In this document: positions 14,412-56,677 of the stretch, piece by piece
Layout: each line of letters opens with the position of its first letter
Position numbering within the stretch: position 1 is the first letter of the stretch
Source of the DNA: Caulobacterales bacterium RIFCSPHIGHO2_01_FULL_70_19
Lineage (GTDB): Bacteria > Pseudomonadota > Alphaproteobacteria > Caulobacterales > Caulobacteraceae
Assembly: GCA_001794825.1 (NCBI GenBank)
Contig: MGLK01000003.1
Span: 53,429-117,428, forward strand
Direction: 5' to 3'
DNA length: 64,000 nucleotides
The notes under the pieces: generated by a model
Told to the model about the DNA's origin: nothing
What the model saw: the letters and a program-made list of their open reading frames with translations, nothing else
The model's database searches: none
Program-made: the position numbers and the translations under genes

Positions 14412-16544
<2,133 letters not shown>

Positions 16545-36003: not shown

Positions 36004-36081
36004 CCGCGCCGCTGGGCGTCGCCCCCTGCGCGAAGGCTGGTTTTCCAGTCGACGGCCGTTGGAGTCCCGCAGTGAAAGGGG

Positions 36082-36720: not shown

Positions 36721-36897
36721 CTGCCCGCCCGAAAGGCCAGGGCGCTCCGAGACTGCGCTCTCGCGCCAAGGTGAGGAAGACCGAAGCGCCGAGTTGAAGC
36801 CCCTCTTCGGCCTCCGTCAACTCAAGCTGGAGAACGTATTGAACGCCCGGGAGTCGCTACGGCGGAGTTGAAAATCCCGGGAAGTCATCCCCCTCCG

Positions 36898-37479: not shown

Positions 37480-37496
37480 GATTGTGATCCGGAGGG

Positions 37497-38699
37497 CTAC
37501 TGGGGGATGGACGCCGGTTCGGTGGTCGGTTCAGCCTCCTGCGGGGAGGGCGGCTCAACCAGTTCGACGTTGAGCGGGGCCCAGCCGCTCCCGCTCACGC
37601 CGCGGCGCCGACCCTCTTCAAAAAGGGCTCTCATGGCGTCTTGATCAAAATCAAGCGCGGATGCCTCAACCTCCGGCGGGATGGCGGCTACGCTGATGCG
37701 CATGCCGTTGCGGCGCGCGAACGCGCCTTGCGCCGCAAGGCTGGTTCGCAGAAGCGACTGGGTCATGCTCTGGTAGGAGCGGGCGAATACGGAGGGCAGA
37801 CTCCCGCGGGTCTGACGCGGACTCAGCCCCAGCTTCCCATTGACGATGATGAAGAGTTCGCTGCCACTCCAGCCGGGCAGCGTTTCGGCGCTGAGGATCA
37901 TGCCTTCGGGCACCCCCAGGAAGGGGGTGTTGACCCCGCCGTCGACATGCATTTCCTGCCGCACTGTTCCGGACTCGCTCACCCCCGCGATCAGGACCGG
38001 AGGGAAGACGCCCGGAATGCTGGCCGAGGCGAGCAGAACCTGCCGGAACAGGCGCAGTGCGTTTTCATCCCCGGCCTCGGCCAGAAGACCCATGTCCCAG
38101 ATCACCGTCTCGCCTGAATCCAGATTGGTCGTGGCGACGAGAAGCCGTCGGCCCTCGCGATTCGCCTGCGCGATTTCCGCCAGCAACGCCGGCGTGACAT
38201 GTTCCTCCACCAGCGCTTCCAGCGTACGAGGACTGAAGAGCCCCGGGGACAGGAAGGCGGCGAAGCTTCGCCAGCTCAGCAATCCCTCTGTACTGCCTTC
38301 GGAATAGGCTGCGGCGAGCTCGTCGTCCCAGTCCGCACCCAGGAAGGCGTAGGGCGCGGCAAGCGCGCCCGTACTGACGCCCGTCACGATGTCGAATTCC
38401 GGGCGATCGCCGCGGTGGCTCCAACCCACAAGCATGCCTGCGCCGTAGGCGCCGTTTGCGCCGCCTCCGGAGAGGGCGAGAATGGAGCGTCGTTTGTCAC
38501 CCCTGTTGAGGCGCCTTCGGAAATCTTCGGCGATGCGCTCCAGTCGGGCTTCATCGCCAGGCGAAATTCTCGGGTCTTGCGTCGCGACCAGGCCGCGCTC
38601 CAGGTCGTGGAGCGCCATTTCGGGGGCACGGTCGATGGTCGCGCACGCGCTGAGGATCAGAAGGCTGGATGCGATCAGGGCGATCCGGACCTGCTTCAT
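37497..38699 (-). CDS. Patatin-like phospholipase lipoprotein
   Basis: Lipobox LLILSACATI; LALSGGGANGAYGAGMLVGW; GVSTGALAAPYAFLG (GxSxG); DGGVNTPF. Confidence 0.92.
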   Translation of the reverse strand: MKQVRIALIASSLLILSACATIDRAPEMALHDLERGLVATQDPRISPGDEARLERIAEDFRRRLNRGDKRRSILALSGGGANGAYGAGMLVGWSHRGDRPEFDIVTGVSTGALAAPYAFLGADWDDELAAAYSEGSTEGLLSWRSFAAFLSPGLFSPRTLEALVEEHVTPALLAEIAQANREGRRLLVATTNLDSGETVIWDMGLLAEAGDENALRLFRQVLLASASIPGVFPPVLIAGVSESGTVRQEMHVDGGVNTPFLGVPEGMILSAETLPGWSGSELFIIVNGKLGLSPRQTRGSLPSVFARSYQSMTQSLLRTSLAAQGAFARRNGMRISVAAIPPEVEASALDFDQDAMRALFEEGRRRGVSGSGWAPLNVELVEPPSPQEAEPTTEPASIPQ

Positions 38700-38786
38700 A
38701 CATCGTTCTCCAGCCGCGCGGATAATGCACCGTACCATTACCCTCAGAAACTCGCTCAATGGGCTTGAGTTCCTTAGAGTATGAGG

Positions 38787-39470
38787 ATGACTCGCCATGT
38801 CCCACCCACGTCTCAGGCCGCTCTCGATCGTGATCGAAAGGTGGGGCGTCCCACGCCCGAGGCGGCTGAGCTTATCGAGCCGGACCTGCTGGCGGCCACA
38901 TGGCGGATTTTCGTCGAACGCGGATACTCAAGGACCACCATCGAGGCGGTCGCCCGACAGGCGCGCATGAGCAAGCGCACGATCTATCAACGGTATAGCT
39001 CCAAGGACCAGCTCGTTGAGGCCGCGATCCGGGCCGCGCTGGAACGGTGGCGATCGCATGTTCGGGAAAGCCTGATCGACACGGGCCCCGGCGCGGAAGA
39101 TTGGTTGGAAGAGTTCGTTCGACGGTGCCTTGGCATCCTGGTCGCTTCGGAAGGGCGCGCCCTGATGGGCTTTCTGCTCACGGAAGATGAGACCTTCCAA
39201 CCCGTCCGCGATACCGTTTTCGCGGCCGTCCGGCAAAGCATGGGGGTCTTCTCGGCGCTTTTGGCGCAGAGGTCCCCTGGCTTGTCGGCGGAGCTTGCGG
39301 AGGACATCTCGTTCGCCGTCCTCGACGTGATGATCGGCTTCGCGACACGGCTCAACGCGCTGCAGCCCCAACTTGCGCTCGAGGAGATCAGGGCGCGGGG
39401 TCCACGGTTCACGGCCGTCGTGCGCTTCCTCGTGGAGGTTCAGGGCGGAGCGATTCCCAAGGCCGACTGA
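38787..39470 (+). CDS. TetR family regulator
   Basis: LLAATWRIFVERGYSRTTIEAVARQARMSKRTIYQRYSSKDQLVEAAIRAAL. Confidence 0.9.
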   Translation: MTRHVPPTSQAALDRDRKVGRPTPEAAELIEPDLLAATWRIFVERGYSRTTIEAVARQARMSKRTIYQRYSSKDQLVEAAIRAALERWRSHVRESLIDTGPGAEDWLEEFVRRCLGILVASEGRALMGFLLTEDETFQPVRDTVFAAVRQSMGVFSALLAQRSPGLSAELAEDISFAVLDVMIGFATRLNALQPQLALEEIRARGPRFTAVVRFLVEVQGGAIPKAD

Positions 39471-39475
39471 AACCG

Positions 39476-41143
39476 TCAGGCGGCGCCCCTCTTCCGCTGC
39501 GGACCTGTATCGTCCGGCAGAACCGGTTCGAGCGCGAAGCCGGCCTCGATATCCCCTTCGGCTTCCATGGCGGTCGGAGGCGCCGCGGAAGGCTTTCGGT
39601 TCGATTGCAGGGCGTGGTGGAGAATGTAGGTGGGCAGGAGTGCGCCGGCGAAAACGATCGCTGTGATCAGAAAGCCGTCGCGATAGGCGGCGGCGGCGGC
39701 CTGATAGACGACTGTCTGTCCCAGTAGCCAGCCCGAGGCCGCGGCCTGGTCCAGCCCGCCCACGCCAAGTTGGGCGATGGCCCGTCCTGCCCCCTGAACA
39801 TACGCAGTGGTCGCGACATTGTCCGACGTCTGGGTTGCGGCGATGAGATCGCCGTGGAAGGCGGTGCGCCGTTCCACAATGACTGCCAGCAGGCCGGTGC
39901 CCAGGGCGCCGCCGAGCTGCCGGGTGAAGTTCATCGCGCCCGACCCCTGGCTCAGAAGCTGCGGCGGCAAGACGGTCAGCGAACCAGCGCTGAGCGAAGG
40001 AAAGACGAACCCCATGCCGACCCGGCTGATCACGGTCCACCAGGCCAGCGTCCAGAAGGCGGTGTCGACGCTGACATGCGAGAGGAGCCACGATGCGTAA
40101 GCGAAGATGGCCATGCCAAGACCGATGAGCACGCCCGGGGGCGCCATGTCGCTGAGCTTTCCGGCAAGGGGGAAGACGAAAACAAGGGCGAACCCCGCCG
40201 GCATGAGAAGAAGTCCGGCCTGCGTTGGCGTAAGATTCTGGATCTGCTGGACGAAGATGGGCAGCAGATAGGTCGAGCCGAACAGCCCGGCCCCCAAGAC
40301 GAAGCTGACCACGCACGCCGCAGCGAAGGGCGCGTTTGCGAACAGTCTGAGGTCGAGCATCGGATGAGGGGTTCGGTGTTCATGCCAGAGGAAGGCTCCA
40401 CCGGCCGCGAGGGCCAGAGCGATCTCACCGATCACGATGTTGGAGTCCCATCCCAGGCGCTGGCCGCTCGAAATCGCCTGAAGCACCGACAGCAGGAACA
40501 CGGAGAGATACAGGATCGCCGGCCAGTCGAGCCTTTGCCGCTCAAGGTCCGGGTTCCGGGACGGCAGGAACAGGTTGGCGAGGACGATGCCGACGACCCC
40601 GAACGGGATCCCCAGATAGAAGAGAAAGCGCCAATCGAAATTATCCATCAGCACCCCGCCCACCCAGGGACCGAGGGCCGGCGCCAGCACCACGCCGATG
40701 CCGAAAATGCCCATCGCCGCTCCTCGCTGCTGCGGCGGGAAGACCTGGAACATCACCACCATGGCCAACGGCTGGACGAGGCCGGCGGCCAGGCCCTGAA
40801 GAATGCGGGAGATCACCAGAACCGTCTGATCGGGCGCGACGCCGCCGACAACCGATCCGAACAGGAACAGCGCCAGGGCGCCGATCATCGTCATCCGCTG
40901 ACCGAAGGCGCGTTCGCACCACGCCGTCATCAGCATCGTCACCGTCATGGCGGCGAGAAAGCCCGTCGAGAGCCATTGGGCCTGGACCGAGTCGATGCCG
41001 AACTGGCCCATGATGGCGGGAATCGCGACATTGACGATCGTCGAAGACAGCACGACCGCGACGGCGGCGACCATCGCCGTCAGAGTGGCCAGCCAGCGAT
41101 ATCCGGGGCCGAAGCGGGCGAAAAAGGCGTCAGTCGACGACAT
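39476..41143 (-). CDS. DHA2 family MFS multidrug exporter (EmrB-like)
   Basis: 14-TM-type MFS; STIVNVAIPAIMGQFGIDSVQAQWLSTGFLAAMTVTMLMTAW; GPWVGGVLMDNFDWRFLFYLGIPFG. Confidence 0.95.
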   Translation of the reverse strand: MSSTDAFFARFGPGYRWLATLTAMVAAVAVVLSSTIVNVAIPAIMGQFGIDSVQAQWLSTGFLAAMTVTMLMTAWCERAFGQRMTMIGALALFLFGSVVGGVAPDQTVLVISRILQGLAAGLVQPLAMVVMFQVFPPQQRGAAMGIFGIGVVLAPALGPWVGGVLMDNFDWRFLFYLGIPFGVVGIVLANLFLPSRNPDLERQRLDWPAILYLSVFLLSVLQAISSGQRLGWDSNIVIGEIALALAAGGAFLWHEHRTPHPMLDLRLFANAPFAAACVVSFVLGAGLFGSTYLLPIFVQQIQNLTPTQAGLLLMPAGFALVFVFPLAGKLSDMAPPGVLIGLGMAIFAYASWLLSHVSVDTAFWTLAWWTVISRVGMGFVFPSLSAGSLTVLPPQLLSQGSGAMNFTRQLGGALGTGLLAVIVERRTAFHGDLIAATQTSDNVATTAYVQGAGRAIAQLGVGGLDQAAASGWLLGQTVVYQAAAAAYRDGFLITAIVFAGALLPTYILHHALQSNRKPSAAPPTAMEAEGDIEAGFALEPVLPDDTGPQRKRGAA

Positions 41144-42254
41144 CGATCGTCGCCTCGACCATCATGCCGGGCCTCAGCCGGCCTTGCTGCTGGACGATCT
41201 CGAGACGGACCGGGATGCGCTGCGTGACCTTGGTGAAATTCCCGCTGGGATTCGGGTTGGGCAACAGGGCGAACTGACTCGTCGCGGCCCCTCCCACGTA
41301 CGACACCCGGGCTTCGAAGACTTCGCCCGGGTAGGCGTCGATCTTGATCCGGGCGGGTGCGCCGATGGAAATCTTGCGGACATCGGTCTCCTTGACGTTT
41401 GCGTCGATCCAGACCTGGGAAGGATTGTGATACATCAGCAACCGCGTGCCGGCGGCGACGAACTCGCCCGGATCGACGAAGGTCTGATCGACGATCCCGT
41501 CGAACGCGGCGCGGATCTCACGACGACCGAGATCCAGGTTCTGCTGGCCGCGTTGAGCCCGCAACCCTTGCTTCTGAGCCTCGAGGGCGGCGATCTGCGC
41601 CTCCAGCACCTCGACCTCGCTGGAGCCTTCGCGGGTGACGCCGACCTGGGCCCGCGACCCGGCGATCTGCGCCTCGGCCCGCGCCGCGTTTTGCTCGGCC
41701 GCGCGAAGCCGAGCCTGATCTTCGTCGAAACGGCTTTGGGCCACCAAGCCCCGCTCGAACAGGGTCCTGGACCGCTCGAAGGCGCTGCGCGCCGCCGCGA
41801 CCTCCGCCTGGCGAGCCAGGGCATCCGCCTGGGCCGCTGAGACTCCGGCCGCCGACACGCCCATCTGCTCTCCGACCCGCCGCACTACCGCCGCCTGTTG
41901 CGCCCGGAGCTGGCTCTGCTGGGCCTCGATCCGCGCGATCTCCGCATCGATCCGTTCGAGGGCCAGGCGGGAGTCCGCGGGATCAATTCGCGCCAGGAGT
42001 TGCCCGGCGCGGACCCGTTGACCCGCGCGGACCTGAAGATCAACCACCCGTCCCGAGACCTCGCTGCTGACGGCGACGACGTGAGCGCCAATGCGCGCGT
42101 CGTTGGTCGACACCTTTCCTGCCCGCAGGTGCATCCAGCCGAAAACGAGTGCGACGACGGCCACGACGACGCCGACGAGGATGATCAGCCTGCGCCGCCC
42201 TGGTTTGGACTTTTCCTTCGGGGCGGAGGGGGGAGGCGAGGGAGCGTCGCTCAT
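41130..42254 (-). CDS. HlyD/EmrA family membrane fusion protein
   Basis: KVSTNDARIGAHVVAVSSEVSGRVVDLQVRAGQRVRAGQLLARIDPADSRLALE; VWIDANVKETDVRKI. Confidence 0.94.
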   Translation of the reverse strand: MSDAPSPPPSAPKEKSKPGRRRLIILVGVVVAVVALVFGWMHLRAGKVSTNDARIGAHVVAVSSEVSGRVVDLQVRAGQRVRAGQLLARIDPADSRLALERIDAEIARIEAQQSQLRAQQAAVVRRVGEQMGVSAAGVSAAQADALARQAEVAAARSAFERSRTLFERGLVAQSRFDEDQARLRAAEQNAARAEAQIAGSRAQVGVTREGSSEVEVLEAQIAALEAQKQGLRAQRGQQNLDLGRREIRAAFDGIVDQTFVDPGEFVAAGTRLLMYHNPSQVWIDANVKETDVRKISIGAPARIKIDAYPGEVFEARVSYVGGAATSQFALLPNPNPSGNFTKVTQRIPVRLEIVQQQGRLRPGMMVEATIDVVD

Positions 42255-42691
42255 TTGTCGTCTAGTCTTTCGTTGATGTGCGCAATGACCCGGGTGGCGG
42301 TGGCCAGGTCGTCCCTGGACAATCCCCCGGTGATCTCGCGCCGGACCTGTTCGGCGATCTCCAGAATCGCATCCAGCACGGGCCCGGCGGCCTCTGTCAG
42401 ATAGACAGCGTTGGCCCTTCGGTCTCCTTCGATCGCCGCGCGGCGAACAAGTCCGCGCCGTTCCAGGTCGTCCAGCTGACGGACGAGCGTGGGAGGCTCG
42501 ATGCCGATGCGCGCCGCCAGATCTTTCTGGCTCAACATCCTGTCGGCTTTCTTGAGTTCAAGCAGCACATGCCAACGCGCCTGCGTCAGGTCGAGGTGCC
42601 TGAGGCGCTCGTCCAGACGCGAACGCCATTTGCGGCTTGCCAGGCCGATCGCGCGGCCGAGCGGGATGTCGGTGGTGGTCATTCCCGCCAT
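42251..42691 (-). CDS. MarR family regulator
   Basis: LTQARWHVLLELKKADRMLSQKDLAARIGIEPPTLVRQLDDLERRGLVRRAAIEGDRRANAVYLT; ATGA overlap with EmrA. Confidence 0.93.
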   Translation of the reverse strand: MAGMTTTDIPLGRAIGLASRKWRSRLDERLRHLDLTQARWHVLLELKKADRMLSQKDLAARIGIEPPTLVRQLDDLERRGLVRRAAIEGDRRANAVYLTEAAGPVLDAILEIAEQVRREITGGLSRDDLATATRVIAHINERLDDK

Positions 42692-42725
42692 ATAGGTTGC
42701 AAATAAATAGCAGGCAAATCATATT

Positions 42726-43070
42726 GTGGACATGCATTTTGGGTTCGTTGCGAACGATGTTCTGGTCGCCGAAGACCTTGCATTCGTGCAATGGTTCGGT
42801 CTTTCCGCAGGCCGCGCCCGGGTGCTTTCCATGCTCTGGCGGGCCCAAGGCGAGATTGTGAGCGCCGGCTCTTTCGGTCTCAGTCGCCGTAGCGCTTATG
42901 TTTACGTTTCTGAGTTGCGCATGGCGCTCGATCCTGGCGCCATCCATACACGGTCCAAGTCCGGATACGCCTTGACCCAATCGGGCCTCGAAGAATGCCG
43001 GGCCGCCCTTGGGGCGATGCATCGCTGGTGGTCGTCAGAGGCCGCGGAATCGAGAAGCATCGCCGCATAG
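42726..43070 (+). CDS. Winged-helix/HTH-domain protein of unknown function
   Basis: LSAGRARVLSMLWRAQGEIVSAGSFGLSRRSAYVYVSELRMALDPGAIHTRSKSGYALTQSG; divergent from MarR. Confidence 0.6.
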   Translation: MDMHFGFVANDVLVAEDLAFVQWFGLSAGRARVLSMLWRAQGEIVSAGSFGLSRRSAYVYVSELRMALDPGAIHTRSKSGYALTQSGLEECRAALGAMHRWWSSEAAESRSIAA

Positions 43071-43099
43071 CGGCCAAATGGAGTGCTTGACGCGCGATA

Positions 43100-44224
43100 T
43101 CAGTCGAGGGTGGTCCTGTAGCGCACGATCGCGAGGGCCGTGACTACGACGACGAAGGCGGCCAGCGCCATCACGCTTGGCCAGGCGTCCGCCAGACCGA
43201 CGCCCTTCAACAGGGCGCCGCGGACGATCCTCAGGAAATGGGTGACCGGAATCAACGAGCCCAAGGCCTGGGCCCAGTCCGGCATGCCGCGGAAGGGGAA
43301 CAGAAAGCCGGAGAGCAGCATCGAGGGCAGGATGTAGAAGATGGACATCTGCATGGCCTGCATCTGGGTCTGGGCGAGGGTGGACAGGAAGAAGCCAAGG
43401 GCCAGCGATCCCACGATGAACAGCATGACGCCGACCACAAGGGCGTCCCAGCCGCCGGCCATGGGGACGTCGAACAGGAGCCGCGCCATCACCAGGAAGA
43501 GGGTCACCTGCACAACGCCCACCCCGACGTAGGGGGCGAGCTTGCCGATCATGACTTCGAGCGGCCGCACGGGCGTCGCCAGCAGGCTTTCCAGCGTTCC
43601 GCGCTCCCGCTCGCGCGCCATGGCCAGCGACGTCATCATGACCAGGGTCATCGACAGGATGACCCCGAGCAGGCCGGGAACGATGTTGAAGGCCGTTATG
43701 CCCTCCGGATTATAGCGCCTGTGAACGATGACCTCGAACGGGGCGCCTTGTGTCGACCGGACCAGCGGGCCGGTCAGGTCGCGAGCCAGCGCTTGACCCG
43801 GAAGGCCCGCGAGCGCGGCCAGGGCCCCGCCGGTCGCCGAAGGATCCGCGGCGTCGGCTTCGATCAGGACCGTGGGATTTTCCCCGCGGACAACCCGGCG
43901 CGTGAAATCCTGGGGGATCACCACGGCGAACTGCACCTCTCCGCGGGCCAGCGCCCGGTCCAGTTCGGCCTGACTGTTCGCCGACTGGGTTATGCGAAAA
44001 TAGCCGCTGTTCGTCAGGGCGCTCAGAAACGAGCGCGAAAAGCTTCCGTGGTCCTGCACATAGACGGCGGTCGGCAGATTTCGGGGATCGTCGTTGATCG
44101 CATAGCCGAATAACACCAGCTGGAGGATCGGCATGATGAGGATCATGGCGTAGGCGAGGTGATCGCGCGTGAGCTGAATGAATTCCTTGGCCATCACGGC
44201 CCAGATTCGGGTCGCGGAGAGCAT
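43100..44224 (-). CDS. ABC-2 type transporter permease (YhhJ/YbhR-like)
   Basis: AVMAKEFIQLTRDHLAYAMILIMPILQLVLFGYAINDDPRNLPTAV; MLLSGFLFPFRGMP. Confidence 0.93.
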   Translation of the reverse strand: MLSATRIWAVMAKEFIQLTRDHLAYAMILIMPILQLVLFGYAINDDPRNLPTAVYVQDHGSFSRSFLSALTNSGYFRITQSANSQAELDRALARGEVQFAVVIPQDFTRRVVRGENPTVLIEADAADPSATGGALAALAGLPGQALARDLTGPLVRSTQGAPFEVIVHRRYNPEGITAFNIVPGLLGVILSMTLVMMTSLAMARERERGTLESLLATPVRPLEVMIGKLAPYVGVGVVQVTLFLVMARLLFDVPMAGGWDALVVGVMLFIVGSLALGFFLSTLAQTQMQAMQMSIFYILPSMLLSGFLFPFRGMPDWAQALGSLIPVTHFLRIVRGALLKGVGLADAWPSVMALAAFVVVVTALAIVRYRTTLD

Positions 44225-45150
44225 CAGTCCGAGTCTCGCTGAAGGTCGGCCGTCAACTGGATGAAGACGTCCTCCAGGGTCGGCCGGGTTTCCGTCCAGA
44301 CGACCGGCGCTTGACTGAGGGGTGCAATCGCCTTTTCCAGTGCGGCGCGATCTCGTCCGGAGACGTGCAGCGTCGTTCCGAACACCGTCGCCATTTCGAC
44401 GCCGGCCTGGTTCCGAAGGCGCGGAATGAGCCGACCGACGTTCGGTCCTTCCGCCAGGAATGTGGTCAGGCCGGACTCATCGATGACCTGGTCGGCCGTA
44501 CCGCGGGCAAGCGTTCGACCGCCCGCGATATAGGCGATCTCGTGACACCGTTCCGCCTCGTCCATGTAATGCGTGGACACCAGAACGGTCATGCCCTCGT
44601 CGGACAGCGCATGAATCTCGTCCCAGAAGGTCCGCCGGGCTTCGGGATCGACGCCGGCGGTCGGCTCGTCGAGCAGGAGCAACTCGGGTTCGTGCAGCGT
44701 CGCGGCGGCGAGCGCCAGACGTTGCTTCCAGCCGCCGGAGAGCGTGCCTGCCAGCTGTCGGCGCCGCTTGACCAGCCCCAGACGTTCGAGCGCGGCCTCG
44801 ACCCGGGCGGCGCGGCGGTCCAGTTCGTGAACCCGGCTCGTGAAGATCAGGTTCTGCTCGATGGACAGGTCGTCATAGAGCGAGAATTTCTGCGTCATGT
44901 AGCCGACCCGACGTTTGATGAGTTCGGACTGGCTCATGACGTTGTAGCCCAGAACCTCGCCCTCGCCGCTGTCGGGCGTCAGCAGACCACACAGAAGGCG
45001 AAGCGTGGTCGTTTTGCCCGCTCCGTTTGGGCCGAGGAATCCACAAATTCTGCCGCGTTCGACGGTAATGCCAAAATCCTGAACGGCATGGAGATCGCCG
45101 AACGACTTGTTCAGGCCTCGAACGTCGATCACTGGCTTTGCATCGGTCAT
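44224..45150 (-). CDS. ABC transporter ATP-binding protein
   Basis: GFLGPNGAGKTTTLRLLCGLL; GTLSGGWKQRLALAAATLHEPELLLLDEPTAGVDPEARR. Confidence 0.95.
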   Translation of the reverse strand: MTDAKPVIDVRGLNKSFGDLHAVQDFGITVERGRICGFLGPNGAGKTTTLRLLCGLLTPDSGEGEVLGYNVMSQSELIKRRVGYMTQKFSLYDDLSIEQNLIFTSRVHELDRRAARVEAALERLGLVKRRRQLAGTLSGGWKQRLALAAATLHEPELLLLDEPTAGVDPEARRTFWDEIHALSDEGMTVLVSTHYMDEAERCHEIAYIAGGRTLARGTADQVIDESGLTTFLAEGPNVGRLIPRLRNQAGVEMATVFGTTLHVSGRDRAALEKAIAPLSQAPVVWTETRPTLEDVFIQLTADLQRDSD

Positions 45151-46130
45151 TTCGCGCCCCGCAACCGTTCGACATCGACGGGCAAGCCCGGTTGTAGCGC
45201 GCGTGGGTTTTCCGGGGCCGCCTCGATCATGAAGACCAGTCGATCCCGGCTGCCCTGGCTGTAGAGAATAGGCGGGGTGAACTCGGGTCGCGGGCTGATC
45301 CAGGTGATCCGGGCCTTGCGCGGCGCACCGCAGCCGTCACAGCTGAATCTGACCACGCCCCCCGGTCGATAGTGGATCAACTCGCGTTCCGGCACGAAGA
45401 ACCGCAACTTGACCTCTGCGTCGGGCAGCAGCGCGAGGACGGGTTGATTGGCGGGGACGAATTCGCCCTGGCGGAAGAAAATTTCCTCGACACGGGCTTC
45501 CACCGGCGCCCGGGGAGAGAGGGTGCGCAGGCGAACCTCGGCTTCGTTCAGTCCGCCTTCGGCCTGGCGGATCTGTTGTTCGGCGGCCCGCAACGCATCT
45601 TCCCGTGCGCCAAGCGTGGCCACCTCTCGGCGACGGCGGACGGCCTCGACCTGCGCCCTTGCCGTGTCCCGGTTCGCTCGCTCCTGGTCGAGCCTGGCCG
45701 GCGCGTAGATGCCCCGGCGCACCAAGGGTTCGATCCGGGCATAGCTGGCTTCGGCTTCGCGGAGCTGCGCCAGGGCGGCGGCGAGTTCGGTGTCGAACAC
45801 CTCGAGTTCCTGCGCCCTCTGTCCCGTACGAAGATCGTCCGCGCGAGCTCGGGCGGCCTCGACGGACGCGGCCGCGCCGCGCTCCTGGGCCTCCTGCACG
45901 CCGGGGTCGATCTGGAAGGTCACCGCGCCGGCCTGGACGCGGTCGCCTTCCCGCACATACAGGGCTTCAAGCGCGCCGGAGGCGGGCGCCGCGAGATAGA
46001 CCGACTCGCCTTCGACGTAGCCGGAAAGGGGCCGGTTCGTCTGGTCGGTCTGTAGAAACGACCAGACCGCGGCGCCCGTCGCGACGACACCGATAACGGC
46101 GGCGATCCTGTAGATGAGCCGGCGCCTCAC
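45147..46130 (-). CDS. HlyD family secretion protein (YhiI-like)
   Basis: GYVEGESVYLAAPASGALEALYVREGDRVQAGAVTFQIDP; likely GTG start overlapping the TetR stop. Confidence 0.9.
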   Translation of the reverse strand: MRRRLIYRIAAVIGVVATGAAVWSFLQTDQTNRPLSGYVEGESVYLAAPASGALEALYVREGDRVQAGAVTFQIDPGVQEAQERGAAASVEAARARADDLRTGQRAQELEVFDTELAAALAQLREAEASYARIEPLVRRGIYAPARLDQERANRDTARAQVEAVRRRREVATLGAREDALRAAEQQIRQAEGGLNEAEVRLRTLSPRAPVEARVEEIFFRQGEFVPANQPVLALLPDAEVKLRFFVPERELIHYRPGGVVRFSCDGCGAPRKARITWISPRPEFTPPILYSQGSRDRLVFMIEAAPENPRALQPGLPVDVERLRGAK

Positions 46131-46753
46131 GCCTTCATTCCCTTGAGGATCGTGTCCAGGTGCTGGCATGCGAGCGCCTCAAGCGGCAATGACTCGGCCC
46201 CGATGGGTTCGAAGGTTTCCCGCCACAGCAGCCCCAGCACTAAGGGGCCCAACAGGCCCATCGCAAACAATTCGGGATCGCCGGACCGGACTTCGCCGGA
46301 CCTTTGACCGCGACGGATGATGTCTGAGATCAGCGAAAGCAGCGGTGTTATCACGGTTTGATGCCAGATCAGGGCCAGTTCGGGCAGGTTTCGGCTTTCC
46401 GCGACAATCAGCTTCAACACTCCGCCGATGCGGGGATTCGACTGGATCGCGGAGACGAGAACACCGACGCCCAGCCGCGCGGCTTCGTCGAAGGGGATTT
46501 CGGTTCCGGCGCCGGTTCGAATCTTCAGCAGTCTCGGTTCGATGGCGTCCTGCACCACGGCCTTGAACAGATCCTGTTTCGTTTCGAAATACAGGTAGAG
46601 CGCGCCCTTCGAGACCCCGGCCGCCCTGGCGATGTCGTCCAGCCGGGCTCGGGTGAAGCCATGCTCGGAAAAGACCTCAAGCGCGGCCGCGATGATCTCT
46701 TTGGGCCGGTCAGCCGCGCGGCGGCGCCATTTGGGTTCACCAGGAGGCAACAT
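46127..46753 (-). CDS. TetR/AcrR family regulator
   Basis: RPKEIIAAALEVFSEHGFTRARLDDIARAAGVSKGALYLYFETKQDLFKAVV. Confidence 0.93.
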   Translation of the reverse strand: MLPPGEPKWRRRAADRPKEIIAAALEVFSEHGFTRARLDDIARAAGVSKGALYLYFETKQDLFKAVVQDAIEPRLLKIRTGAGTEIPFDEAARLGVGVLVSAIQSNPRIGGVLKLIVAESRNLPELALIWHQTVITPLLSLISDIIRRGQRSGEVRSGDPELFAMGLLGPLVLGLLWRETFEPIGAESLPLEALACQHLDTILKGMKA

Positions 46754-46765
46754 CGAGGATCATCC

Positions 46766-46789
46766 TAATAACTGATCAGTCGGTTATTA
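46766..46789. promoter_or_regulatory. Candidate operator palindrome upstream of TetR-HlyD-ABC operon
   Basis: taataactgatcagtcggttatta: near-perfect inverted repeat containing the perfect core actgatcagt, 13 bp upstream of the TetR start. Confidence 0.6.
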
Positions 46790-47423
46790 GCGTGCTCGGG
46801 ACTCTTGAGCAAGGGGCCGGGCCTCTGGCGCTGAGCGGCTCGCACCGGTTCGGCCTGACCTGGGGCCGTAGCCGCCGGGTTGATCTGTCGCCGAGCATCG
46901 ATGGGGAGCGGCCACCTACCCTCGCGTCCAGGAGGGAAGTTCGCCGAAGCCGCGCCGCACGGCCTGGCGCAATTTCCTTCAGGGCAAGGGCGGCGCCATT
47001 GCGCGGACCGCCCCCGGCCCGGCATTGAGCCGCGCTCGATCAAGGCCGGCGAGACGCCTCCCGATCACCGGCGACTCCGGGCTCGTCCCGATTCACCGGG
47101 GAGCAAGCGGGGGGCGTGTGGCCCCGCACTTGCCGCAGACCTCCATTTGACGGCGTTCCGACCAGGAAAAGCTGTGCCTGCAAAAAAGTCGGCGAACTCG
47201 CTTGAACATGAATGACTTGCCTCCCGCGAGAAAATGACGCTGGCAAAGCCTGCCCCCCGATCCTCAATGGGCAAACCCCCGGCGGGTTTCGTTGACAACG
47301 CCCGGACACACCGCCTCCATAGGCAAACTGCGCCAAGGTTGACGTCTTTGCACGCGTTTGGCACCGTTTTGATGTCCGCCCGCCGTTTCATGACCTCCAG
47401 CTCGGGATTCCCGATCCGGCCGT

Positions 47424-47640
47424 GTCATCGCGCAGTCTCGCGACCCTGAGCCGCTGCTGCCAAACGGCCTTCAGGTCCACCGGGGGCTGCTGGACGGCAA
47501 GACCCTGGAGCGCGATCTGGCGGAGGACCGGCTAATCGTCGGTCCCGCGATAACCGGTTGCTGGTCGGGGTCTTGCTGGAAGTCCGGGCGCGGCACTGGG
47601 AGGGTCGCCTCGCCGACGTTCGCCGGGCGCATCGGACGAA
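47424..47640 (+). pseudogene. Frameshifted 3'-terminal fragment of a second lasso C (cyclase) gene
   Basis: agtctcgcgaccctgagccgctgctgccaaacggccttcaggtccaccgggggctgctggacggcaagaccctggagcgcgatctggcggaggaccggct closely matches 24161 onward of the intact C gene; single-nucleotide deletions break the frame. Confidence 0.88.
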
Positions 47641-47683
47641 GCGTTCCATCGTCCGTCGGCTTGGCGATCGCCGAGCGGGCGGC

Positions 47684-50179
47684 TCAGCTCGAGGGAATGC
47701 TCGCGGACTGGAGCCCCGACGCGTGTCCAGGATGGCGACAGCCGGGGACCTGAGCGGCCGGCCCCGGCGCGCGGGGGGCGTCGCCGAGCTCCGCGGGGCC
47801 CAGATAGCGGTCCAGCCAGGCGAGGATACGGGCGTGAAGGTCGCGCAGATTGGCGGGGCTGACGAACACATGGCCTTCGCCTGCATAGGTCACGAGATCG
47901 GCCTCGCGTCCCAGCCGGTACAGGGCCCCGAACAGGACATCGCCGCCGGCCGGGTCGAGGTCGCCCTCGATCAGCAGGACGGGCGTGCGGATCCGGTCGG
48001 CGAGGTAGATCGGACTGTTTTCGACATAGGCCTCGGGTCGCGCCGGCAGGCTGGCGCCGATCGCGCCCTGACCGCTCTCGGCCCAGCCCGCCAGGGCGTT
48101 GATCGGCACCCCGTCGTCGGGGGAGACCAGGAAATGCGGCGTCAAAGCATAGACCCGGGAGAGGTCGGCGTAGCCGGCCGAGGCGATCACGGTCCGGAAG
48201 CGCTCGCTCCGCGCCGCAGTCAGCAGAGCGGCGTGTCCGCCGTAGCTATGGCCGATCAGGGCCACGCGGGCCGGGTCGATCGGCGCCTGTCGGGCCGCCT
48301 GATCGACGATAGCGTCGATCCGTGCGGCCAGATCGTCCAGCCCCGTACCGGCGCCGCTGGGGCGAGGCAGGGCGGGCACAAGCACGGCATAGCCGTGGGC
48401 GGCCATGACGGCTGGATTGATGTGTCGCCGCTCTCCGCCTGGCCTGAGCCAGGATGGCGGAACGGGGTAGGCGGCGCCGGGGTAGAGGACCACCGCCACG
48501 GGGACCCTCCCGCCGCCGGGGTCCGGCGGCGGGAGCAGCAACCAGCTGGTCAGGACCTGGCCGTCCGGCCCGGGGTGGGTGACGGCTTCAATCCGGCCCC
48601 AGGCCAGCAGGTCGAGCGCGAGGTTGAGCGTCGCAAGCGGATGGTCGCCGTTCGGGTCGCGGCGCAGCAGGCGGGTCGATCCCATCGCCGAAAGGCGCTG
48701 CACGACCGCAAACCGCGCGTCCGGGCTGGCGGCGAGGAGGGTCTCGTCCGGGCCCAGCGGCGGCAGGCAGGCGCCGGAGCGCGACGCGCCGAGGCGGGTG
48801 AGACATCCGGCCTGCAGCAGGACGCCCGGCGTTGGGTCGACCTCGGTCGGGTTGGTTCGCGCCCGGCCGCCGCCGTCGGCGGCGCGCTCGCGGCTCTGCA
48901 CACGCCCGGGGAGACCCGGAGCTTCGGAGGGGGTGTCGAGGCGATACAGCCCGTCACCGCGTTCGATCCAGGCGTGACCGCCGGCCTGCAGCAGGCGTTC
49001 CGAGGGCTCTCGGACCGGAACGGTCAGGGCGTTCGGGTCCGCCCGAAGCCACGCCTGGGCCCCGTCTGTCGTCCGGACCTGGACGACGGGCGCTCCGCCG
49101 TCCCAGCCCGCCCGCACGAAGGGCATGCCGTCGGCCTGTTCGGCGACCCAGGGTCGGGCGTCGCCGAGTCGCACGGGCCGGGCCGGACCGGCGCGGGAGA
49201 TGCGCCAGAATCGGCCGTCGTCCCACGCCCCGCCGGGCGTCCGGCCGAAGGCCAGTACGGATCGCCCGTCCGGCGACCAGCTCAGCAGATGCGACAGGAT
49301 GTCCTGATCGGGCAGGGGCTCGTCCACTTGCCGGTTTTCAATGTCGACCAGCCACAGCCGCCTGCGTCGCGCCGGCGTCCCGACCCGCACCGGGGCGTCG
49401 CCGCTCGCCTGCAGATCCTCGGCGTCGGCGAGGACGGCGACCGCCGCGCCGTCCGGGGACAGTTCGAAGTCGAACAACGCCCCGATGGCGAGCTCCGTCT
49501 GGGCCCCCGTGCCGAGATCGAGGCGGACCAGGCGCGCCGGCGCGGCGGGATCGCGGTCGCCGCGACGCGCGCCGCTGGGAATCGAGACCGCGGAGGGCGC
49601 GTGACCCGCCTCGAACCGGCGCCACAGCGCCGCCTTGCGCGCCTGGGTCTGGCCGCCGAGGCGGAACACCAGGGGAAGATCGTCGGGCGCCCGCGAGATC
49701 AGGATGACCTCAGTCGCCGAGCGCCAGGCGACCGTGCGGCCGAGGCCGGTGAACTCCGGGGTCAGGGCGAACCAACGGGTTTCGCCGGTCGCCAGGGTCA
49801 GGACCCCGAGGCGCCAGCTCGTCTCGGTCAACCGGAAGACCAGCATCCGGTCGCCATCGGGGGAGAAGGGTCCGGAGACATAGCCGGTCGCGTGGCCGGG
49901 GTCGGAAATGACCCGCGGCGGCGCGCCGGACGTCGCGTCGTGTATCTCCAGACCGCTCAGCAGATGGGTGGTCATCAGCCCGAAACGGAAGCTTGCCGCC
50001 GACGACCAGGCGGCGCGGCGCTCGACGACGATCCAGCGGCCTCCTGGGCCGATCCGGACCTGGCCGAGACTTTCCTGACCCAGCACCGCCTCGATGGTGA
50101 CCGGCCGCGGCGTCTCGCCCACGCCCGGGCTGGCCGCCGTCCCGAGGACGGCGGCCAGCAGCAGACAGACCGGACGCAT
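47684..50179 (-). CDS. Lasso peptide isopeptidase-like serine hydrolase (AtxE2 family; beta-propeller plus prolyl-oligopeptidase-type catalytic domain)
   Basis: Signal peptide; VVERRAAWSSAASFRFGLMTTHLLSGLEIHDATSG; catalytic GHSYGGHAALLTAA, PVLLIEGDLDPAGG, GEGHVF; adjacent to TonB receptor and lasso C fragment. Confidence 0.82.
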   Translation of the reverse strand: MRPVCLLLAAVLGTAASPGVGETPRPVTIEAVLGQESLGQVRIGPGGRWIVVERRAAWSSAASFRFGLMTTHLLSGLEIHDATSGAPPRVISDPGHATGYVSGPFSPDGDRMLVFRLTETSWRLGVLTLATGETRWFALTPEFTGLGRTVAWRSATEVILISRAPDDLPLVFRLGGQTQARKAALWRRFEAGHAPSAVSIPSGARRGDRDPAAPARLVRLDLGTGAQTELAIGALFDFELSPDGAAVAVLADAEDLQASGDAPVRVGTPARRRRLWLVDIENRQVDEPLPDQDILSHLLSWSPDGRSVLAFGRTPGGAWDDGRFWRISRAGPARPVRLGDARPWVAEQADGMPFVRAGWDGGAPVVQVRTTDGAQAWLRADPNALTVPVREPSERLLQAGGHAWIERGDGLYRLDTPSEAPGLPGRVQSRERAADGGGRARTNPTEVDPTPGVLLQAGCLTRLGASRSGACLPPLGPDETLLAASPDARFAVVQRLSAMGSTRLLRRDPNGDHPLATLNLALDLLAWGRIEAVTHPGPDGQVLTSWLLLPPPDPGGGRVPVAVVLYPGAAYPVPPSWLRPGGERRHINPAVMAAHGYAVLVPALPRPSGAGTGLDDLAARIDAIVDQAARQAPIDPARVALIGHSYGGHAALLTAARSERFRTVIASAGYADLSRVYALTPHFLVSPDDGVPINALAGWAESGQGAIGASLPARPEAYVENSPIYLADRIRTPVLLIEGDLDPAGGDVLFGALYRLGREADLVTYAGEGHVFVSPANLRDLHARILAWLDRYLGPAELGDAPRAPGPAAQVPGCRHPGHASGLQSASIPSS

Positions 50180-53136
50180 CACCAGGTCCGGGTCAGCTGC
50201 AGGGCGATGAAGCGGCCGATGACGCTGGTGTTGGCCGCGTCGTAACCGATGCCTTCGGGCGCGTTGTAGAAAGGCGGATCGCGATCGAACAGATTCTGCA
50301 CGGTCAGGGCGACCGCAGACCCCTGGAAGGGGCCGGTCTCCGGCGCATAGCGGATCTGGGCGTCGGCCGTGGTCCAGGAGCCGATCCGCGACCCGGCGAG
50401 GTCGTGATAGGAATCGACATACTGCACCGAGGTCGAGGCGCTCCAGGGACCCCGCGCCCAAGCCAGGGAGCCGCGGCCCCGCAGACCGACTGGGTAGTTG
50501 GGGCGGTCGCGCAGCGACTGGGGCGAAGCGTCCGGGGTCGTCCAGCTGTCGAACCGGGCCAGATACGACAGCGTCAGTCCGAGGTCGAAGGCGTCCGGTC
50601 CGAGATCGAAGGCGTAGCGGGCGTTGGCGTCGATCCCCTCCACCTCGACGCGCGCGGCGTTGACGTAGCGGGCGTCGACGATCGCCCCATAGGACGTGGC
50701 CGGAAAGGCATCGCGCGAATTGGTGGTCGGCAGGTCGAAGATGGCCTGGACGGCGGCGCGGTCATCCGCGTTGTTGAGCGGATCGACGATGCGGACAAAG
50801 GCCGACAGGGCGGGATCGGACAGGGCCGTCAGGATGTTCTCGAAGGTCGGCTGGCCGATCCGGTTGTCGAACTCGGTGCGAAACCAGTTGAAGCCGAGCT
50901 TGAGCCCGGGAAGGGCCTGTGGCGCATAGTCGGCGCCCACCGTCCAGGTGTCGGCCTCTTCCGGCTTGAGGTCGGGATTGCCGCCGTACAGGATTATCGA
51001 CAGGACCTGCTGGGCGCCGCGCGGAAGGAAGGTCGGGCTCTGTCGCGCGGCGTCGTTCAGCTCGCGCAGCGCCGGAGCGCGGAAGGAGGCGCCGTAGTTG
51101 CCCCGCACGACGAGTTCCGTCGTGGGCTCCCAGACGAGTCCGATCTTCGGACTGGTGGTCTCGCCGATGTCCTCATAATTTTCGAACCGGGCCGCCAGCG
51201 ACAGCTCGAGCCGCTCGAAGCCGGGACGGCGGTTGTCGCGGCCGAACAACGGCACGCGCAGTTCGCCGAAGACGGCCGAGACCTGGCGGCTGGTGTCGGT
51301 CGCCACGCCCGTCGTCGGCGCAAGGCCGCTGCTGAAGCTGTCGTTGCGCCGCCAGAAGGTCTCCTCCCGGAACGCGAGGCCGGCGGCGAGGCGGACATCG
51401 CCGCCGGGCAGGGCGAACACCGGGCCGTCGAGCTGCAGGTTGGCCGAGCTGACCCCGGTCTCCGCCTGGCTGTGCGTCCAGCCGGAACTGATGAAGGCCA
51501 GAGCCGCGGGCGAGCTGACGCCGCCGCCGCCGAACGGGTTGAAAAAGCCGTCGCGCGCGGCGCTGTAGGGCGTCGCGGCATTGTCGGCGATCGCGCCCAG
51601 GGCTTCGCGCAGGAAGGTCGAATTCAGGGCGCCGAATGTCTCGTTGTCAGTTCGTTCGGAGGCATGGGCGACATAGGCGTCCAGGGTCCAATCGCCCGTC
51701 AGGTCGATCCGGGCGCCGACAGAACCGCCGAAGCTTTCGGCCTCGCCGCGGATGCCGGGATTGGGCAGGTCGTTCTCGAACGAATAGGCGATGGTGTGGG
51801 AGGCGGCCCCGGTCGGCGAGACGAACCACGGATTGCCGGTGTTGACGGTGAGCAGGGTGGCCGTCGGCGCCGAGACGGTCTCGTAGCGACGCTGGCCGTA
51901 GCGCGCGTCGGCGCTGACCTCAAGGCGCGCTCCAAGCTCCTGTCGCAGGGCGGTGAACAGGCTGTGCCGCGTCTGACGCGGCAGGACGTTCATGCCGCGC
52001 CTCTGGTTGCTGAGATTGGTCTGGCCGGGGAGGAAGGCGCCCGGCTCCAGATCGGTCCCGTCCTGGCCGGGCGGGATGGCGTGGGTCGAGACATAGCCGC
52101 CGGCGACGGGGTCGAAGACCACCAGATTGCCGGGCGCGGCGTAGTTGAGCCGCCGGTCCGATCCGCCGCGCCAGCGCAGATCCGCGTCGCCCGCGAGCCG
52201 CCGGGCCGAGACCGGCAAGGCCCCGCGGTCGTAATATTCATAGGTCCCCATCAGACTGCCGGAGGACCAGCGCCGGCCGAGGGTCTGACCCAGTTGGACT
52301 TCGTCGCTGGCCCCGTCGGCGGTTCCGCCGACCCGCAGACGGGTTTCCGCCCCGTCGTAGTCGTCGCGCAGGATGATGTTGACGACGCCCCCGACCGCGT
52401 CGGCGCCGTAGAGGGCCGAGGCCCCATCGAGCAGGACGTCGATGCGGGCGATGGCGCTCGTGGGAATGGTGGAGACGTCGGCGAAATCGCCCATGGCGCC
52501 GGTTCCGGCCATGCGCCGGCCGTTGATCAGCACCAGGGTGGCGTCGCTGCCGAGACCGCGCAGATTGACGCCGGAGGCGAAGCTGCCGTTGGTCGCGGTG
52601 CGATCCGCGCCGTTCTGCAGCGCGCCTTCATTGGCCGTGCCCCCGAAATTCTGGGGCAGGGCGGCGAGGGCCTGGGCGACGGTGGCGTGGCCGGCCCGGT
52701 CGATGTCGTCCCGGCTGATCATCACCACGGGCGAAGGTCCGTCGGCCACGCCGCGGATCAGGCTGCCCGTCACCACGACGTCGTCCAGCTCGGCCGGCTC
52801 CTCCGGGATCGCCGCCCGGGCGGCCGGGTCATAGAGGACGAAGACGTTCGGGCGCGAGCGCCGGTGGGCGAGACCGGTCTCGCGCAACAGAGCCGCCAGG
52901 GCGCCGTCCGGGGCGTGCTCGCCGCTCAGCCCGGGTGATCGTCGACCCGCGACAAGGGCGGCGGGGTACAGGATCTGGACGCCGCTCTGGCGGGCGAAGG
53001 CGGTCAGGGCCGCGTCGAGCGGTCCGGCCGCGATCTCATAGCGCCGCACCGGTTCGGCGGTCTGCGCCATGACCGGCGACGCCGAAGCCAGCATCAGCGC
53101 CGAGAGCGCCGTTGAACCCAATCCTCTGTGCATCAT
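50179..53136 (-). CDS. TonB-dependent receptor with N-terminal STN (signalling) domain
   Basis: RRYEIAAGPLDAALTAFARQSGVQILYPAALVAGRRSPGLSGEHAPDGALAALLRETGL (STN); VVVTGSLIRGVADGP; plug and barrel; ends LQLTRTW. Confidence 0.95.
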   Translation of the reverse strand: MMHRGLGSTALSALMLASASPVMAQTAEPVRRYEIAAGPLDAALTAFARQSGVQILYPAALVAGRRSPGLSGEHAPDGALAALLRETGLAHRRSRPNVFVLYDPAARAAIPEEPAELDDVVVTGSLIRGVADGPSPVVMISRDDIDRAGHATVAQALAALPQNFGGTANEGALQNGADRTATNGSFASGVNLRGLGSDATLVLINGRRMAGTGAMGDFADVSTIPTSAIARIDVLLDGASALYGADAVGGVVNIILRDDYDGAETRLRVGGTADGASDEVQLGQTLGRRWSSGSLMGTYEYYDRGALPVSARRLAGDADLRWRGGSDRRLNYAAPGNLVVFDPVAGGYVSTHAIPPGQDGTDLEPGAFLPGQTNLSNQRRGMNVLPRQTRHSLFTALRQELGARLEVSADARYGQRRYETVSAPTATLLTVNTGNPWFVSPTGAASHTIAYSFENDLPNPGIRGEAESFGGSVGARIDLTGDWTLDAYVAHASERTDNETFGALNSTFLREALGAIADNAATPYSAARDGFFNPFGGGGVSSPAALAFISSGWTHSQAETGVSSANLQLDGPVFALPGGDVRLAAGLAFREETFWRRNDSFSSGLAPTTGVATDTSRQVSAVFGELRVPLFGRDNRRPGFERLELSLAARFENYEDIGETTSPKIGLVWEPTTELVVRGNYGASFRAPALRELNDAARQSPTFLPRGAQQVLSIILYGGNPDLKPEEADTWTVGADYAPQALPGLKLGFNWFRTEFDNRIGQPTFENILTALSDPALSAFVRIVDPLNNADDRAAVQAIFDLPTTNSRDAFPATSYGAIVDARYVNAARVEVEGIDANARYAFDLGPDAFDLGLTLSYLARFDSWTTPDASPQSLRDRPNYPVGLRGRGSLAWARGPWSASTSVQYVDSYHDLAGSRIGSWTTADAQIRYAPETGPFQGSAVALTVQNLFDRDPPFYNAPEGIGYDAANTSVIGRFIALQLTRTW

Positions 53137-53217
53137 GTCCCCCTCTGGTTACCCGCGAGAGCGCGGGCCAGGGAAGAGACGCTGTGACGGCCGGGCGACC
53201 CTAAGTCGGTGGGCGGA

Positions 53218-54204
53218 TTATTTTTGCGTGGACGAACCCGACAGGATCACCGTGCCGTCCGGCCGACGTTCGGCGGCGACCGGGTAGAGATCCTCGAGGG
53301 CGGCGACGAAGCCGTCGACATCGCCGGCGTCGAAGGCGCCGCTGACGGCGATGTCGGCGATGTCCGGCGCCTGGAGCTCTACCTTGCGCGCGCTGTAGCG
53401 GTTGACCTCCGCCACCGCCGTCCGGATCGGCACGCCGTCGAAGATGAGCCGGCCGGTGGTCCAGCTGGTGGCGCGCGCGGCGTCGACCGGCGTGACCTCG
53501 GGACGGTCGACGGTGGTGACGATCTGTTCGCCGGGCTTCAGGGTCCAGTCGGCCCGGGGGGCGCGCTGATCGCCGACCTTCACGCGTCCTTCGACCAGGA
53601 CCACGCGGGTGCCTTCGCCGACCCGCCGCACCTCGAAGCGGGTGCCTATCGCCGTGACCCGGGTGTCGCCCGCCTCGACGACGAAGGGCCGGCCCGGGTC
53701 TCCCTCGACGTCGAACAGGGCCTGCCCCCGCACCAGGGTGACCGAACGCAGGCCGGCGTCGAGCCGGACATGGACGCGGGTGTCCGTGTCCAGGGTCAGC
53801 CTTGACCCGTCTTCAAGCTGGATGGTCCGCAGTTCGCCGACGTCCGTCGCATAGGCGAGCGGCCGGTTGACCATCCACATCCCCGCCGCGGCCACGACGA
53901 CGAGGGCGGCGGCGAGACCGGCGAAAGGTTTGAGCAGGCCCGAGGCGGAGAATTTCGCCTGCGCGGGACGCGCCCGGCCCAAGGCCTCGGTCGTCAGCGC
54001 CGCGATGTCGGCGTCGCCGGCGAGCTCGCGGCTCGAGTCCCAGACGGATTCCACCCGCTCGTAAGCCCGGGCGTTGTCGGGGTCCCGCCGCCAGGCGCTG
54101 AACGCCTTGACGTCGTCCGTCGACACCCGGCGCTGGCTCAGCCGGGCGAACCAGGCGGCGGCTTCCCGCCGCCGGATGTCGAGGTCGTCGTCGACCGTCA
54201 TCAT
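53218..54204 (-). CDS. FecR family anti-sigma factor
   Basis: EAAAWFARLSQRRVSTDDVKAFSAWRRDPDNARAYERVESVW; YATDVGELRTIQLEDGSRLTLDTDTRVHVRL. Confidence 0.95.
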   Translation of the reverse strand: MMTVDDDLDIRRREAAAWFARLSQRRVSTDDVKAFSAWRRDPDNARAYERVESVWDSSRELAGDADIAALTTEALGRARPAQAKFSASGLLKPFAGLAAALVVVAAAGMWMVNRPLAYATDVGELRTIQLEDGSRLTLDTDTRVHVRLDAGLRSVTLVRGQALFDVEGDPGRPFVVEAGDTRVTAIGTRFEVRRVGEGTRVVLVEGRVKVGDQRAPRADWTLKPGEQIVTTVDRPEVTPVDAARATSWTTGRLIFDGVPIRTAVAEVNRYSARKVELQAPDIADIAVSGAFDAGDVDGFVAALEDLYPVAAERRPDGTVILSGSSTQK

Positions 54205-54211
54205 ACCCTGC

Positions 54212-54697
54212 CTAATCGTCCAGTCGCGCCACGCAATGCTCGAGCGCCTTCGACATCCGCCATTCGACGGTCTTGACTTTGAGCCCGCGCGCGGCGGCGA
54301 TCTCCGCATAGGTCATACCGCCAAAGCGGCTCAGGACGAAGACGTCCCGGTAAAGGGGCGGCATCGTCAGCACGATCTGCTTCAGCAACAGCTGGTCCGC
54401 CTGGGACGCGGCCTCGGCGAGAGCCGCGGGCTCGGCCGCCAGGGATTGGCGTCTGGCGCGGCGGCTTTCGTCCCGCACGAGGTTCATGGCGATCCGCAGC
54501 AGGAAGGCCCGGGGGTGGCGGATGTCGCCGATACGGTAGGGCGCGGCGCGCAGATAGGTGTCCTGCACCACATCGGCGGCGCGATCCGGATCGACATGGG
54601 CCCTGAGCCGGCCGTCGAGCCAGCCCGCATAGCGGCGATAGAGGCTGTTCAGCCCCTCCGCCGCTTCCGGGTCCAGCTGCCTGGTGTCGGTCAACAC
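54212..54697 (-). CDS. FecI-type ECF RNA polymerase sigma factor
   Basis: LYRRYAGWLDGRLRAHVDPDRAADVVQDTYLRAAPYRIGDIRHPRAFLLRIAMNLVRDESRR; probable GTG start at 54697. Confidence 0.93.
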   Translation of the reverse strand: MLTDTRQLDPEAAEGLNSLYRRYAGWLDGRLRAHVDPDRAADVVQDTYLRAAPYRIGDIRHPRAFLLRIAMNLVRDESRRARRQSLAAEPAALAEAASQADQLLLKQIVLTMPPLYRDVFVLSRFGGMTYAEIAAARGLKVKTVEWRMSKALEHCVARLDD

Positions 54698-55168
54698 GCC
54701 TCTCCGTCCGGGGGGCAGAACCGGAATCCTCAGGCGCGAGGGCTCGGCGTCGACCCGGCGCAGGCGTGCGCAGGATCGGACCGCCGTTGGCGACGGGCGC
54801 GCCGGGCGCGCGTCGTTGTGTTTGACTTCGCACAGGGGATTCCAGGCCCCTGCCGGCGCAGGCGCCGACGCCCCACCATGAATCAATCGGAATCGCGACG
54901 CAAGGCGGAGGGGTCGGGCGTTGGAATCCTGCGAAACGAGGCCCGCTACTTCAGCGCGCAGCGCCGCCTCCGCCCTGGGGCGAACCCCGGCTCCGGCTGC
55001 GCGCCTGTCTCACGGCGCCCGACCGGAGGTCTGTAGGGGCCGCATCGCCGCGGTTCAATCCGCCTGGCGGCGAGGCCGCCGCAATAATTCTGCGGCCAGC
55101 CCGCAAAACATCGACGTTGCCGAGGTCGGGCGGGCGCGGCTACGCAAGGAGGCCTGACAACCTGCGGT

Positions 55169-55417
55169 GTGAGTATGGACGCGCTGTCAACCGAACCCGA
55201 TCCGGCGAATCCCGGGGTCACGCTCAGTCCAAGGGAACGGGAATGTCTCCACTGGGCGAGCCTGGGCAAGAGCTCCGCCGACATCGGGACGATTCTCTCG
55301 CTGTCGCCGCGCACGGTCGACAGCTACCTTGAGAAGGTCTGCGCCAAATTCCGCGTCAGGACCCGCATCGAGGCGGTGGCCGCCGCGGTCCGGCAAGGGA
55401 TCATCGATCCCGGCTAG
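55169..55417 (+). CDS. Short stand-alone LuxR-type HTH protein
   Basis: LSPRERECLHWASLGKSSADIGTILSLSPRTVDSYLEKVCAKFRVRTRIEAVAAAVRQG. Confidence 0.8.
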   Translation: MSMDALSTEPDPANPGVTLSPRERECLHWASLGKSSADIGTILSLSPRTVDSYLEKVCAKFRVRTRIEAVAAAVRQGIIDPG

Positions 55418-56677
55418 GGGAGGGGGCGGGCCAGGAACTTCTGTGAGGAAGCCCGGCGTTTCGGCGCCGATCGCCGCCGACGTTCTCACGTCCCCTGGCT
55501 CAAGATCGACGCCTATCGTTCCCGGGACCCGCCAGGGCGTATTCTAGACATCGGTCGCCCGGCTTCCAATCGATTTTCCGGCGCGGATGCGGTCGGCGCC
55601 CGCGGTTCGCTGCGACCCCTCACCGTTCGGGCGCCGGATGGCAACCGCGCGGCGCTGTAACGATTTCAGTTTCGCTGCGAATGGATCAGACGGCCGAGCG
55701 CCGACACCCTGGGAGGATGAGATGAACACGAACGTCCAAGGCGCCGGATCGCGCGGTTGGCATGTTCCGGATCGGCAAGGCGCTTGAGGCCGAGGCCTTG
55801 TCCCGTCCGGGCGCTGAGCTCGTCGTGTTCAGCGGCCGCGAGATGGGCGGGATTGTCCGGGTCGATGCCGATGCCGCGCTTGAAACCGGCCTTGGCGGAT
55901 GGATCGATCTTGCCACGGAATTCGCCGGCCCCCTGCCGCCCAAATAGTTCCGAGGGGGTGTAGCGGTTTCGTGGGCGCTTGGCCGATGCTGCTTCCGGCA
56001 TCGCAGTCTGGATGCTCACCGGCCGGATCGAGTTTGGGATTGTGTCGCCTTGACATCGTCGAAGACACCGCCGCGTGCTACATTGTGTGGGTGGGGTTAC
56101 CTCAGGTGAGTCCCTAAATAATCGACTGCGCGACGTTGCCAATACATCTCGAAAGATGTCGAGATCATGCGTTTTTTTCATCAAACTATTTCACAAGCGT
56201 TTTCAGCGTACCAGAATTTTGTCGGCTTGCTGAACGGCCTAGCTGATCGCGCCTACAAAAAGTGCCGAAAAACAATAGTCCAAGAGAAATTGAGTAATCG
56301 AGTGGGAGTGAGGGGTGGCGGGCATGCGGGGTCGGCCACTGGAGAGAGGATTTCGTTGATGACAGAGGGACCTTAGCGGTCGGGATCGGGCAGGGCGATC
56401 CTGTAGCCCTACCGTAGTAGATTTACGGGAGCAGGCGACCCCGCGCATGATCGAAGGATCACGCGAGGTCTGGTTCTGAGGTACCGACAACTCAAATCCT
56501 GTCGACTTGAGCCGATCTCAACGGCTCGCTTTATCCGGTGTCCGGTCAGAGTCCGGCGGTCCGCCGGAACAGAATCTCGTTGATGTCGACATCGTCGACC
56601 TCGTTGATGGCGAGGGCGATCAAGCGGGAAGGTCTTGCCGACACCGAAACGGTCCTCTGGCTGAAGATCGACAGCCA

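Follow-up and report, generated by a model that had tools for sequence, protein, structure and literature searches.

An isopeptidase-bearing series of proteobacterial lasso clusters has been described (PMC5067487). The isopeptidase-type clusters of astexin, caulosegnin and sphingopyxin are the closest counterparts of the locus analysed here, which likewise encodes a B protein, a cyclase C, an isopeptidase-like E, a TonB-dependent receptor, FecR and FecI. The locus lies in a window of 64,000 nucleotides, the whole stretch of DNA that was analysed, corresponding to positions 53429-117428 of contig C3 of genome G000 (assembly in 42 contigs), which its named relatives place in the genus Brevundimonas. 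In contrast to the described clusters, however, that of the window is split by 23 kb, has no precursor gene, and its C and E fall below curated cut-offs. B and C are on the plus strand, separated by this interval from E, the receptor and the regulators on the minus strand:

21988-22629, plus strand: lasso B protein gene, B2-type peptidase, transglutaminase-like (NF033537 lasso_biosyn_B2, PF13471)
22626-24419, plus strand: intact lasso cyclase C, asparagine-synthase-like (PF00733)
47684-50179, minus strand: isopeptidase-like E, S9 family (PF00326)
50179-54697, minus strand: TonB-dependent receptor, FecR and FecI-type sigma factor (Pfam)

The B protein scored 71.7 bits with NF033537, above the cut-off of 33, and on this basis is assigned to a lasso cluster. 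The reading frame of C is open across 597 codons and its product is 92% identical in amino acids to those of the related genomes G103 and G048; it was above the cut-off of PF00733, with lasso and macrolactam cyclase models matched below theirs. For E, the top NCBIfam match was NF033523 (Atxe2 family), with an E-value of 4e-18 and a score of 65 bits, where the cut-off is 400. As these models were matched below their curated cut-offs, the names lasso cyclase and isopeptidase are putative, and are based on weaker sequence matches together with gene context.

We consider it highly probable that the split results from an old insertion-duplication at the C/E junction, of Campbell-like geometry, in an ancestor shared by the window and G103. 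Such an event explains how a lasso cluster can appear broken in two, in which state cluster-mining tools would miss the link of E, receptor and regulators to a B and C 23 kb away. The locus is an example, with a phylogenetic placement among its relatives, of how accessory DNA can divide a biosynthetic cluster and leave the flanking genes intact. No report of such a split-cluster arrangement was found in the open-access literature that was searched.

The duplicated C/E junction

Four features make up the two ends of the interval:

24143-24421, plus strand: left copy of the duplicated C/E junction, within which 24330-24421 (e') is a decayed piece of the 3' end of E
47417-47626, plus strand: fossil 3' end of C (c') with four 1-bp deletions (blastn, global alignment)
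47627-47774, strand not given: spacer of ~150 bp between c' and E, encoding the new tail of E and its stop
47775-47866, strand not given: right-hand copy of the C/E overlap (92 bp), which forms the intact end of E

The initial annotation had placed a fossil copy of the C 3' end at 47,424-47,640, aligned to about 24,160-24,367 and carrying frameshifting single-base deletions. This fossil is real, with its start moved to 47417. A blastn search within the window gave 24143-24356 and 47417-47626 as its strongest repeat, in the same orientation and 84% identical including gaps (E-value 3e-57). Global alignment of c' with C, which the annotation had proposed as a check, counted 180 identities, 30 mismatches (17 of them transitions) and four 1-bp deletions, all of which were in the fossil and none in intact C; both of the indels quoted in the annotation were present. 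Outside the lasso region, the window also contains a 180-bp direct repeat (14442-14620 and 14748-14926) that is 74% identical.

The repeat at the ends of the interval proved to be longer than had been claimed. The 3' tail of C (24330-24421) matches the 3' end of E (47775-47866), the second co-linear match running from 24340-24422 to 47781-47865 with 76% identity and a local score of 64; the highest score among 100 shuffles was 30, and that of any unrelated site in the window 35. The right copy of this stretch codes in antisense for the end of E (VSPANLRDLHARILAWLDRYLGP), and its left copy forms the C tail with a few bases past it. Because the second match falls inside E, the duplication extends beyond C, and its unit is the C-3'/E-3' junction. 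The claim that ~23 kb are bracketed by direct repeats is thus upheld, with the correction that what is repeated is the C/E junction rather than C. Truncation of the two copies is reciprocal, the left end holding an intact C with a piece of E and the right end a piece of C with an intact E. The spacer at 47627-47774 is common to G103 only, and gave no match outside that genome among the neighbouring and related sequences searched.

The site in relatives and the lineage of the fossil

In Brevundimonas, 24 C/E pairs were located, including that of a second lasso cluster of G000 (C14:20607-22364). In 18 of the 24 pairs the protein match of C overlaps that of E tail to tail, by about 30-80 bp, and the six non-overlapping pairs are those of the window, G103, G111, G030, G036 and G054, the C/E gap in G054 being only ~200-250 bp. 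The close relative G048 has a single-copy, uninterrupted site, in which window positions 21994-24421 and 47775-55549 are matched side by side, and 92 bp of G048 (31852-31943) match both window ends. As G048 joins both flanks with these 92 bp shared, the two ends of the interval were once one point. G103 (NZ_JAQSDK010000026.1) has the same order as the window, with C followed by a ~25.7-kb interval, the fossil, the spacer and E. The insert (~23-26 kb) is therefore present in the window and in G103, and absent from G048. Reciprocally truncated direct repeats of the target, together with this uninterrupted site, are the marks of an insertion-duplication, and the relatives bear out that reading, which the initial annotation had listed.

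The fossils of the window and G103 differ by 13% and the intact C ends by 5%, as expected since the fossil copy is unconstrained. While the deletion 'ctga-gccgctg' in c' occurs in the window only, the deletion 'gtccc-gcgataacc' and those near 'cacc--gcg', at two of its deletion sites, are common to the G103 fossil, and these frameshifts are older than the split between the window and G103. The annotation had held that the event was not recent, with which the insertion common to G103 and the distance between the two fossils agree.

In the tree, the fossils of the window and G103 are sisters (support 100/99) and fall within the clade of the C genes of the window, G103, G048 and G111 (100/100). 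A topology in which the sole partner of the window fossil is window C was rejected (p-AU 0.0004). The tree, built on 203 columns, is compatible with c' branching within the group of the four intact C genes or immediately outside it, and entry from the junction of a diverged strain would therefore account for it as well as self-duplication would; a tree of the whole C gene leaves the order of the window, G103 and (G048,G111) unsettled. The second lasso cluster on C14 of G000 could have suggested that the fossil is the relic of a separate cluster of another lineage, which we regard as extremely improbable, since c' lies 0.151 from window C and 0.276 from the C14 gene and groups with its own lineage. 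The grouping of c' with a different lasso lineage, which the annotation had named as the outcome that would speak against a duplication, did not occur, and derivation of the fossil from the C14 cluster in particular is rejected by distance and tree.

The insert and its entry

The interval between the two junction copies was divided as follows:

24422-47416, strand not given: inserted ~23 kb, absent from G048 and present in G103 (Pfam)
24681-25429, plus strand: partial, degenerate second copy of the stretch at 35.8-37.1 kb
34939-47033, strand not given: segment 2 of the insert, which occurs as a single block at another locus in G130

Pfam matches in the insert comprise a hybrid histidine kinase, an RND pump, TetR, DUF4142, patatin, an EmrAB-like pump, MarR, an ABC exporter and a further TetR. 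GC content is 0.65-0.69 in the insert and 0.715-0.735 in the flanking lasso genes. We infer that the cargo is of outside origin. At the left end of the insert lies a gene with weak homologues throughout the genus, and its right end (47034-47416) is matched in G103 only, apart from scraps of ~40-50 bp elsewhere. A search of a plasmid set for a source of the insert gave only generic pump similarity.

Segment 2 lies in G130 at an unrelated locus (C7:621284-633647), and over most of 39.5-44.5 kb G130 is 93-98% identical to the window, compared with 86-96% for G103 at the same locus. Because the G130 block is thus in part closer to the window than is same-locus G103, segment 2 appears, from these identities, to have been exchanged between species. 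The RND segment is itself bracketed by a direct-repeat pair, 24681-25429 and 35800-37081, of which the latter is the fuller version; in G130 the matching stretch occurs once, adjoining a block without RND genes. This repeat pair may be the hint of a previous event with a similar geometry. The insert is composite, and was probably built in more than one step. In its lower-GC accessory genes, in breaking no operon and in the presence of segment 2 elsewhere in G130, the insert resembles a genomic island with accessory cargo. In contrast to such islands, however, it has no detectable mobility gene, tRNA target or short attachment repeat: Pfam detected neither recombinase nor transposase among its genes, its ends have no 9-mer in common, direct or inverted, outside the junction repeat, and no tRNA or RNA-gene target was found.

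The event may be reconstructed from a lasso cluster in which A, B and C would have been followed by the convergent E, TonB receptor, FecR and FecI genes, with the tails of C and E overlapping. Foreign DNA would then have entered the C/E junction in an ancestor common to the window genome and G103, leaving about 280 bp of the junction (24143-24421) at both ends, as C with e' on the left and c' with E on the right, and both working genes would have survived because each retained one full copy. As reciprocal truncation is the expected outcome of one crossover, entry may have been by a single crossover in which the chromosome recombined with a circular (or tandem) molecule bearing the ~280-bp C/E segment. 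The redundant halves c' and e' would subsequently have decayed, and a change of ~150 bp between c' and E would have given E its new tail. As in a Campbell-type insertion-duplication, the insert lies between direct repeats of its target, with a full C on one side and a full E on the other, while the diverged repeats, the ~150-bp spacer in the right copy and the lack of a visible circular donor set it apart. Integration of a circle by recombination in C, which the initial annotation had also put forward, is thus consistent with the geometry, although no circle, plasmid or recombinase was found.

Within the insertion-duplication reading, the main alternative for the entry step is that slippage or repair produced a small tandem duplication of the junction between C and E, the efflux genes being added stepwise between the copies later and no circle being involved. 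This route would produce an identical final geometry, and the composite insert with its second direct-repeat pair around the RND segment speaks for it; as no genome with a doubled junction but without the insert was found, we entertain it tentatively. The ~150-bp spacer needs an extra step under crossover and under local duplication alike. The annotation had further proposed a tandem cluster that lost its middle, and the end of C does precede an E on both sides, as two tandem lasso clusters with the middle lost and replaced would predict. However, the 23-kb interval gave no significant relics of A, B, the body of E, the TonB receptor, FecR or FecI, and G048 and other relatives have a single uninterrupted cluster, which makes this history very improbable.

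Cargo at other C/E junctions and loss of the precursor

Three further Brevundimonas genomes carry DNA between C and E: a SulP permease and Usp in G111 (L077, ~4.2 kb), an AbiEi/AbiEii toxin-antitoxin in G030 (L127, ~2 kb) and ~6.2 kb with a serine recombinase in G036 (L128). An integrative, site-specific element aimed at the C/E junction, its recombinase lost later, would accommodate this other cargo and the recombinase encoded in G036. It is nevertheless a very unlikely source of the split in the window, where neither a recombinase or transposase nor short terminal or attachment repeats were detected and where ~280 bp far exceeds an ordinary target or att duplication; nor was any long repeat found at the insertions of G111, G030 and G036. 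With four unrelated cargos among the 24 pairs, the convergent C/E junction is indicated as a collecting point for accessory genes. Whether the tail-to-tail overlap of Brevundimonas is a recurrent integration hotspot, for a cause beyond the sparing of operons, seems rather doubtful to us, and selection alone may explain the pattern, since an insertion at a convergent junction breaks no operon.

The copy in the window also shows a cluster in decay. Unlike G103 and G048, it is without ~1.3 kb directly before B (site 21985-22000), a stretch in which G103 has the gene of precursor A, that of a GntR regulator and the 5' part of a helix-turn-helix regulator gene. The window cluster is thus without a precursor A gene; G103 has one, as does the second cluster on C14, whose precursor is the only one found in G000. 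The split came first and the precursor was lost later in the lineage of the window, and the split is compatible with a complete gene set, as in G103.

Putative precursors of 75-78 amino acids were found at G103:C26:32710-32937, G000:C14:19684-19908, L127:1682-1918 and L128:5507-5743. On multi-core lasso precursors, nothing pertinent was found in the open-access literature searched. Each of these reading frames has two leader-core units, as in the example in which LGSARIATR precedes ADATEGDMEQIPVRLYESAG and LGSAEQATR precedes ADSTTGDFEQIPVRLWQQG, the putative core boundaries being placed by the Thr at leader position -2.
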